Origin: Caldalkalibacillus uzonensis
GTDB lineage: Bacteria > Bacillota > Bacilli > Caldalkalibacillales > Caldalkalibacillaceae
Direction of reading: 5' to 3'
Assembly: GCF_030814135.1 (NCBI RefSeq)
Contig: NZ_JAUSUQ010000001.1
Coordinates: forward strand, 248,001 to 312,000
Length of the DNA: 64,000 bases
Shown: positions 31,962 to 33,656 of the stretch, one piece after another
Layout of the letters: each line of letters starts with the position of its first letter
How positions within the stretch are numbered: position 1 is the stretch's first letter
Position numbers and translations under genes: made by a program
Notes under the pieces: generated by a model
The model's database searches: none
Seen by the model: only the letters and a program-made list of their open reading frames with translations
Told to the model about the DNA's origin: nothing

Positions 31962-32147
31962 TTATCGAATCCCTCTCTTAGTCATCAGCTGTCTTACATT
32001 TTCTTTTGGCTCCCAGCAGTTAAATTGATAAGCTGGTTTTGTTTCATAACCCAGGCGGGCACAGCGGTAGGTGATATGGCTGTGCCCTTTTTCCACTTTA
32101 AAATGAATACATGTGGCACAACAATGAAAATCCGCTCTTTTTGCCAC
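31962..32147 (-). CDS. Small cysteine-rich protein (61 aa), probable zinc binding
   Basis: Small Bacillales-type protein of unknown function. The cysteines are CCATC (9, 10, 13), one in YRCARLG (29) and one in QFNCWEPKE (44), an arrangement fit for one metal ion. It starts at GTG 32147 after GGGAGGGG. It is 44 bases downstream of the candidate selenoprotein gene on the same strand, so cotranscription is likely; whether they act together is unknown. Confidence 0.78.
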   Translation of the reverse strand: MAKRADFHCCATCIHFKVEKGHSHITYRCARLGYETKPAYQFNCWEPKENVRQLMTKRGIR

Positions 32148-32191: not shown

Positions 32192-33580
32192 TCACCGTAC
32201 TGATTGTGCGGAGATCTCTTGGACGGCTTTCTGGGCCAGTAAAATCAGGCCTTCAGAGAGCGTGGGGTGCACTTGGACCACACTGGCCAGATCGTAAACA
32301 GTCATATTTCCTTTCATGGCAATCGCTATCTGATGTATCAGCTCACCAGCCTCAACTCCGACAATATGGGCACCAATGATTTTGCCAGATTGCCGTTCAA
32401 ACATCAGTTTGATAAACCCGTCTGTTTCACCCAGTAAAATGGCTGTGCCGTTATGTTTAAACGGGGTTTTCTGCACGATATAATCAATTCCTTTTTCCCG
32501 GGCCTGATCCTCCGTCAAACCAACGGTGGCCACCTGGGGGATGGTAAACACTGTGTGGGGAATCACAGTGTAGTCCACTTTTTCCCGGTTGCCCCTGAAA
32601 GCGTTACGAACAGCTAACTTGGCTTCATAGGATGCAACAGGCGTCAGCATCAAGCCCCCAATGCAATCGCCGGCGGCATAAACCCGTTCATTAACGGTTT
32701 GCAAATAGGGGTTAACCTTAACGCCATTTTCATCATAATCGATTCCGGCCTTGTCTAAGTCCAGGCCTTCAATGTCCGGTTTGCGGCCTGCCGCCATGAC
32801 CACCTCGTCAGCCTCAAGGGTATGGCCTTCCCCCTCTGTTTCAAAATGAACAACATAATGGTCACTCTCTTTGGTGATCTTGTGCACATTGGTGTTAGTC
32901 ATCACGTCAATGCCTTTTTCTTCGGATATTTTGCGGATCTCCTCGGAGCTGTCTCGGTCCTGTCCTTTCAGGAGCACATTACCCCGTTGCAGGATTGTCA
33001 CTTTCACACCGGCCGCATGGTAGATGTGAGCAAACTCCAGGCCGATTACCCCTCCGCCAATGATCACCAGTGATTCAGGGAGCTCTGGTAACGTTAACAG
33101 TTCACGATTTGTTTTGGCATATTCAGTGCCCTCAATAGGCGGCATGTTAGGCCGAGAGCCGACACCGATCAAGATCTTGTCGGCTGTGTATGTTTTACTA
33201 CCCACCTGAAGTGTTTGGCCATCAATAAATTTGGCCTCTCCATAAACGAGATCAACCCCCTGTTTGGACAAATAGGGTTCCTTGCCTCCTACAAACTTGC
33301 CAATCCACTCATCTTTGCTTTGCATGACTTTTTGCCAGTTAAGCCGCTTTTGCTTCACCTCTGCTCCAAAAACTTCAGCTTTATTCACGGTCTCCCACAC
33401 TTCCATGGCTCTAACCAGAGCCTTTTTGGGCATTCATCCCCAGTTAAGGCAGGTGCCGCCTATTTTCTCCTTTTCAACCATCAGGATGCGTTCAACACCC
33501 AGCTGTTTGGCCGCTTGCAAACCGTCAAAGCTGACACTGCCGCCGCCAATTAAAATCAGTTCGTAATGGTTGTTTGCCAT
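32192..33580 (-). CDS. Candidate selenoprotein: pyridine nucleotide-disulfide oxidoreductase with in-frame TGA at the redox cysteine
   Basis: Lipoamide-dehydrogenase-like flavoenzyme. ATG 33580 follows AAAGGGAG by 8 bases. Codons 1-48 encode the FAD-binding start (ELILIGGGSVS) and end IGGTCLNWG. Codon 49 is TGA (33436-33434), exactly the second cysteine of the redox motif CxxxxC, and the frame then runs on without interruption from MPKKALVRA to codon 462. Downstream are the NAD(P) motif VIIGGGVIGLEFAH (about 173-186), ILQR near 198 in place of the usual acidic residue (hinting at NADPH), the FAD motif VYAAGDC (about 300) and the catalytic HPTLSEG (His438, Glu443). Full family length is obtained only by reading TGA as an amino acid. 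I infer selenocysteine; a nonsense mutation is the alternative. ATG 33433 would give a 413-residue protein without FAD site or redox pair. Confidence 0.7.
33407..33422 (-). promoter_or_regulatory. SECIS-like hairpin just after the in-frame TGA
   Basis: On the minus strand GGCTCT-GGTT-AGAGCC forms a perfect 6-bp stem with a GGUU tetraloop. The loop begins 18 bases after the TGA. Bacterial SECIS elements lie within the coding sequence shortly after UGA, with a short apical loop having G among its first two bases at roughly 16-37 bases from UGA; this hairpin meets all of these. Confidence 0.65.
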
Positions 33581-33656
33581 CAGCTACACTCCCTTTCAGC
33601 GTCCATTGCCAGACATATGAAGATATTTCTCTTTCTCACTGATTTTAAACAACTGA

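Follow-up and report, generated by a model that had tools for sequence, protein, structure and literature searches.

A predicted selenocysteine-containing subfamily of dithiol flavoprotein disulfide reductases in Caldalkalibacillus uzonensis, other Bacilli and the Rokubacteria phylum

The window, i.e. the whole stretch of DNA analysed here (64,000 nucleotides of the genome of Caldalkalibacillus uzonensis), encodes on its reverse strand a class I pyridine nucleotide-disulfide oxidoreductase whose reading frame contains one in-frame TGA codon. The features of the locus are as follows:

32192..33580 (-): gene for a putative selenocysteine (Sec)-containing class I pyridine nucleotide-disulfide oxidoreductase, identified by translation, Pfam, alignment to structures and fold search
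33581..33600 (-): Shine-Dalgarno-like stretch GAAAGGGAGTG upstream of the ATG
33449..33451 (-): codon 44 (TGC), first redox cysteine, interchange thiol by homology
33434..33436 (-): codon 49, in-frame TGA read as Sec, second residue of the CxxxxU pair, at the FAD-side position
33407..33422 (-): predicted apical hairpin of a bacterial SECIS, GGCUCU-[GGUU]-AGAGCC, with the loop beginning after 17 nt from the UGA
32666..32674 (-): AGD motif of FAD binding, from the translation
32252..32269 (-): HPTLSE, with His438 and Glu443, the catalytic acid-base pair of disulfide reductases

The frame running from 33580 to 32192 (-) comprises 462 codons and a stop, and its translation around codon 49 reads GGTCLNWG*MPKKALVRAMEV. 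The original prediction located this single TGA at the second redox cysteine of a lipoamide-dehydrogenase-like enzyme and proposed that it encodes selenocysteine. The location was confirmed by translation and by alignment to the best solved relative, 1ebd_A (clnwgcmpkkal against clnvgcipskal), in which codon 49 matches the second redox cysteine. Indeed, the alignment to solved lipoamide dehydrogenases and mercuric reductases extends over the full length of the protein and puts the TGA at the same cysteine. The claim that the protein is otherwise intact also holds: when the TGA is taken as a residue, Pyr_redox_2 (PF07992; 204.8 bits) and Pyr_redox_dim (PF02852; 125.4 bits) cover the whole length, the FAD and NAD(P) Rossmann domains and the dimerisation domain are all found by Pfam and fold search, and both AGD and HPTLSE are undamaged. 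A structure model (window protein and five translated homologues) had a mean pLDDT of 88.9, and in the fold search the model of the window protein superposed on lipoamide dehydrogenase and mercuric reductase (MerA) structures with a TM of about 0.9. Without recoding, the list of open reading frames holds only a 413-aa fragment (32192-33433), which is what gene callers had been expected to report. Directly downstream of the reductase, a small Cys-rich ORF of 61 aa (31962-32147, -; HCCATCIHF...CARLG...FNCWEP) has a GTG start and a good ribosome-binding site; a Pfam search with it gave no match.

A genome devoid of selenocysteine machinery would have refuted the original prediction, and the machinery is present. 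Indeed, the genome encodes a tRNA-Sec (73.9 bits; anticodon TCA according to ARAGORN), a SelB (379.9 bits) and a SelA (589.5 bits), all three above their curated cut-offs. Across 101 related genomes, selB scores above the cut-off in 35, including all three TGA carriers among these. The nine carrier genomes first examined all have a tRNA-Sec above the cut-off (9/9). No tRNA-Sec match was obtained in three of the 18 carrier metagenome-assembled genomes (MAGs) of the Rokubacteria phylum (G480, G481 and G490), which may reflect the incompleteness of these MAGs. Co-occurrence of tRNA-Sec with the gene within this phylum was considered as evidence and set aside as uninformative, since tRNA-Sec is found in 78 of its 94 genomes.

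Homologues were sought at the protein and DNA levels. In the 101 related genomes, only two exceed 40% identity (55% and 52%), each with one TGA at the equivalent of codon 49; the next homologues are Cys enzymes with 32-38% identity, and one unrelated homologue carries a random TAG. A DNA pattern for GGTC-x-N-x-G-TGA-x-P-x-K, run on 84,980 species genomes, gave eight matches, of which six were counted: Ammoniphilus sp. YIM 78166, Ammoniphilus resinae, three Rokubacteria MAGs and one SAR324 MAG. The other two were discarded, one in Pseudomonas because it sits in a stop-bounded frame of 31 codons and one in Treponema because our own pattern script failed to reproduce it. The pattern search gave no match in genome G002 although a locus of that genome (L017) contains the exact pattern, and the pattern counts are therefore lower bounds. 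No match was found in viral contigs. In the Rokubacteria phylum, the protein search revealed 19 genes with one TGA in 18 genomes, one truncated copy missing the site, and one complete Cys orthologue (genome G473, locus L096), which has TGC at the site, shares 54% identity and lies in a genome that retains a tRNA-Sec (71.2 bits). In total, 25 orthologous genes contain exactly one in-frame TGA, namely six in Bacilli (the window's included) and 19 in MAGs of the Rokubacteria phylum. The gene with TGA is present in all four genomes of the Ammoniphilus family (4/4), and the carriers include A. resinae DSM 24738, which is a named type strain.

The 24 genes extracted from this clade (6 from Bacilli and 18 from the Rokubacteria phylum) all carry the TGA at the identical codon, down to about 34% identity, in two phyla and with no other lesions. 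Since each of 25 orthologues has exactly one TGA, and its position agrees in the 24 examined, the in-frame TGA is far beyond chance. A comparison with relatives had been put forward as a check on the original prediction, and its outcome favours recoding: the TGA recurs at one codon, scattered lesions are absent, and the only complete Cys orthologue has TGC there. These observations bear on the reading of the gene as a pseudogene, or as an ordinary Cys enzyme with a nonsense mutation or a sequencing error; a lone stop is a common artefact in a draft genome (here 53 contigs), and the random TAG among the 101 genomes is an example of such a lesion, but this reading does not account for a TGA kept at one codon across two phyla without further damage, nor for the Sec machinery and the covarying hairpin described below.

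The redox pair CxxxxU, made of the first Cys and the presumed Sec, is found in all 24 Sec genes examined (GGTCLNWGUMPKK in the window), and HPxxxE in all full-length aligned members; a truncated copy in G468 ends before HPxxxE. In a maximum-likelihood tree, the 24 Sec genes and the Cys orthologue form one clade (support 98/91), separate from other Cys homologues, with the caveat, raised by a warning of the tool, that the Bacilli and Rokubacteria branches are joined between long branches. Most Rokubacterial members (L078-L094) end in a short C-terminal tail with a lone Cys (HEVCEPE, HELCEL), absent in the Bacilli members, which could be an extra redox Cys.

A published model of the bacterial SECIS requires a loop of 3-9 nt, a stem of 4-16 bp, a G in the first two loop positions, a spacing of 16-37 nt and an MFE of at most -7.5 (PMC13188914). 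The window hairpin meets all of these, with a 4-nt loop (GGUU), a 6-bp stem, G in first position, a spacing of 17 nt and an MFE of -9.5 to -12.3. Taken singly, it has only moderate MFE z-scores (-1.1 to -2.1), and an Rfam scan of the window gave no match. On the (+) strand at 33407-33422, the complement of the SECIS with a preceding AAAAA has the score of an intrinsic terminator, which is probably no more than a side effect of the SECIS. In Escherichia coli fdhF, the fold given in the literature places the apical loop at a spacing of 17 nt, equal to that in the window; the fdhF sequence was confirmed in 5,388 genomes.

A hairpin with a GGU loop exactly 17 nt past the UGA is present in 24 of the 24 orthologues examined, with stems of 5-9 bp; this covarying element is evidence that the original prediction did not contain. 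The stem sequence differs among members (GGCUCU/AGAGCC in the window, AGGCCUU/AAGGUCU in other Bacilli, AGACCUU/AAGGUCU in most Rokubacteria, and further variants GCCCU/AGGGC, GGCCCU/AGGGCC and GGCCUU/AAGGCC in the clade), yet pairs 1-5 are standard in every gene (24/24) and vary by compensatory change. In brief, numbered from the loop outwards, the second pair is mostly U-A (20 genes; C-G in the other 4), the third almost always C-G (23 genes; U-A in one), and the fifth A-U (14 genes), G-U (5) or G-C (5). By contrast, all 27 Cys homologues score below 5 for a stem at the hairpin site, and no hairpin was found at the site in the TGC orthologue.

The stem was compared with synonymous recodings that held the protein and the codon use of the gene (test floor 0.0002); a loop length of 3 or 4 was picked for each sequence, with equal freedom allowed to the recoded null. 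For the window gene, the observed stem had a p value of 0.012; the values in the other Bacilli ranged from 0.0002 to 0.0014. Among the 18 Rokubacterial genes, 14 had 0.0002 and the remaining four 0.001-0.036. In the Rokubacterial genes (71.3% GC), the stem is made from otherwise almost unused codons: GTA occurs at +7 in 14 of 18 genes against 0.6% of their Val codons, TTG at +6 in 15 of 18 against 2.8% of Leu codons, and TCT at +9 in 12 of the 14 genes with Ser there against 0.6% of Ser codons. Taken together, the same-codon TGA in orthologues, the covarying hairpin and the rare-codon stems exclude a pseudogene, a sequencing error or chance, and we attach only a negligible probability to a damaged Cys gene.

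The UGA could also be a true stop, giving a 48-aa peptide and a reinitiated protein of 413 aa, or be read through by tRNA-Trp or a near-cognate tRNA with insertion of another amino acid. In the window the TGA is followed directly by ATG, where gene callers would begin the 413-aa ORF, and ATG follows it in the Bacilli generally; in the Rokubacteria the next codon is ATT, ATC or ATA and never ATG. Termination would moreover separate the FAD-binding fold from its redox site. Neither a stop nor such readthrough fits with a codon that is always TGA, never TAA or TAG, that occurs only at a catalytic Cys, and that is followed by a hairpin missing from the TGC orthologue; the chance that one of them is correct appears very slight. 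Decoding of the UGA as Sec, almost certain in our view, is supported by conservation and covariation and has not been shown biochemically: SelB and tRNA-Sec would decode codon 49, steered by the SECIS hairpin whose loop lies 17 nt downstream. We thus hold with high confidence that the gene at 32192..33580 (-) encodes a genuine selenoprotein, a member of a Sec-containing subfamily of class I flavoprotein disulfide reductases. The candidate of the original prediction is in this way supported by the machinery, the relatives and the hairpin, while there is no direct proof of selenium in the protein.

A parallel case was found in SAR324 (loci L098 and L099; genomes G102 and G501), in which genes of another reductase subfamily, NF004992 (PRK06370-type; 767.4 bits), likewise have a TGA in place of the second redox Cys. 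Within SAR324, this subfamily shows TGA in two genomes as against Cys in three, and the tree calls for changes in SAR324 apart from those of the main Sec clade; this switch between Cys and Sec at the same residue is apparently of separate origin. Because the hairpins in SAR324 are weaker, and a Cys gene can also be folded into a comparable one, the case rests on the TGA in two genomes together with tRNA-Sec and selA.

Regarding function, a mechanism can only be inferred from homology. NAD(P)H would reduce FAD, and the flavin would then reduce the Cys44-Sec49 selenenylsulfide; Cys44 would attack the substrate disulfide as interchange thiol; Sec49, adjoining FAD, would resolve the mixed disulfide and form the charge-transfer pair with the flavin; and His438-Glu443 of the other subunit would serve as acid-base. 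The assignment of Cys44 as interchange thiol and of residue 49 as the flavin-side charge-transfer residue is one that we carry over from knowledge of glutathione reductase and lipoamide dehydrogenase. Both the catalytic role and the substrate are inferred, the charge-transfer chemistry by homology. An Arg follows the second beta strand of the NAD(P) domain in most members (e.g. LQR or IAR), as in glutathione reductase, where the site is of NADPH type; this hints at a preference for NADPH, although cofactor preference is untested. The glutathione reductase family (PRK06116, TIGR01424) is alike in fold and redox motif, but the window protein scores 381.7 bits against a cut-off of 480 and has Sec at the FAD-side position. 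Gene neighbourhoods differ between lineages (neighbours include glucokinase, MetA, a BCCT transporter, DapH and an AP endonuclease), and since they are not conserved, the context gives no substrate.

The description 'lipoamide-dehydrogenase-like' in the original prediction stands as a statement about fold: dihydrolipoyl dehydrogenase (E3; PDB 1ebd) is alike in fold, length, CxxxxC position, AGD and HPxxxE, with about 36% identity. It has not been shown that the enzyme is an E3, and it differs from 1ebd in having Sec as second redox residue and no E1/E2 operon in the window. The selenoprotein could nevertheless serve a 2-oxoacid dehydrogenase complex as its E3. The score of the window protein exceeds the cut-off of the lipoamide dehydrogenase model TIGR01350 (421.9 against 408.8), and in G002 (L064, 3409-10271) a cluster of leucine dehydrogenase and bkd-type E1-alpha, E1-beta and E2 genes, which includes no E3, is followed about 1 kb further downstream by the Sec reductase gene, so that an E3 link in that lineage is possible. 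Yet this cut-off is reached by only some members of the Sec subfamily, while others fall short of it (A. resinae, 403.7; Rokubacteria, 337.3 and 336.8), E1/E2 genes are absent beside the other copies examined, and G002 also has an all-Cys E3 in an E1/E2/E3 operon in another cluster. C. uzonensis itself encodes, in an E1-alpha/E1-beta/E2/E3 operon (C13), another E3 that is all-Cys; the main E3 of the cell is therefore probably not the Sec enzyme, and a role as E3 is judged unlikely.

A MerA-like function in the reduction of metals or metalloids was also weighed, as TIGR02053 is the top-scoring model for Rokubacterial members (352.8 and 347.7) and MerA structures are among the best fold matches. 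Membership was rejected: all scores fall under the cut-off of 454.45 (396.8 for the window), the His-Glu dyad of disulfide reductases is retained, the C-terminal vicinal Cys pair is absent, and no mer genes were seen nearby. A MerA-like activity of the selenoprotein accordingly seems quite improbable. Membership in the CoA-disulfide reductases (TIGR03385) was likewise rejected (98.6 against 578.8), and a PHROG match labelled 'ribonucleotide reductase', which spans the whole protein, looks like a mislabelled reductase profile. Most likely, the selenoprotein reduces a small disulfide, of a low-molecular-weight thiol or of lipoyl type, and does so as a stand-alone reductase rather than the main E3 subunit; the substrate is untested.

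Mammalian thioredoxin reductase shares the class I flavoprotein disulfide reductase fold and Sec, but its Sec lies in a C-terminal GCUG tail and its CxxxxC at the flavin is all-Cys, whereas in the window enzyme the Sec is within the flavin-proximal pair itself. A predicted selenoprotein, 'FAD-dependent oxidoreductase (CoA-disulfide reductase)' with the motif UGxP (TIGR03385), has been listed (PMC13188914); it belongs to the flavin disulfide reductase superfamily and has a predicted active-site Sec, but its type is the single-Cys subclass, while the window enzyme is of the dithiol CxxxxU class with GUxP. The FAD-dependent type III sulfide:quinone reductase of selenoprotein subtype NF049943, with predicted Sec (PMC13188914), is of another family and has another motif (HxxU). 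No lipoamide dehydrogenase- or glutathione reductase-type enzyme with CxxxxU is among the 119 prokaryotic selenoprotein families of the 2026 inventory (PMC13188914), and a search by terms found no Sec enzyme of this type in earlier selenoprotein surveys or a 2025 deep-learning survey. In the full-text literature, subscription papers excluded, no report of such an enzyme was found, whether as a CxxxxU protein, as a Sec dihydrolipoamide or dihydrolipoyl dehydrogenase, through Sec with an interchange thiol, or among Ammoniphilus or Rokubacteria selenoproteins; unannounced GenBank annotation lay outside this scope. No Sec-specific model is among the best matches in NCBIfam (June 2026). We think it likely that these enzymes, common to Bacilli and Rokubacteria, make up a selenoprotein subfamily not described before and are the first of the dithiol flavoprotein disulfide reductases in which Sec occupies the flavin-proximal (charge-transfer) position of CxxxxC, with the same residue independently replaced again in SAR324.

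The family adds to the selenoproteome an enzyme that standard gene callers reduce to a 413-aa fragment. Textbook accounts of glutathione reductase, lipoamide dehydrogenase and mercuric reductase have a cysteine sulfur in contact with the flavin; here, selenium is predicted at this position in two bacterial phyla and apparently again in a third, which would broaden the view of Sec in this fold beyond the C-terminal tail of mammalian thioredoxin reductase and the single-Cys enzymes. The Sec orthologues and the Cys orthologue of G473 form a natural selenium/sulfur pair through which the role of the charge-transfer residue is open to study, and the carrier type strain A. resinae DSM 24738 makes direct testing possible.
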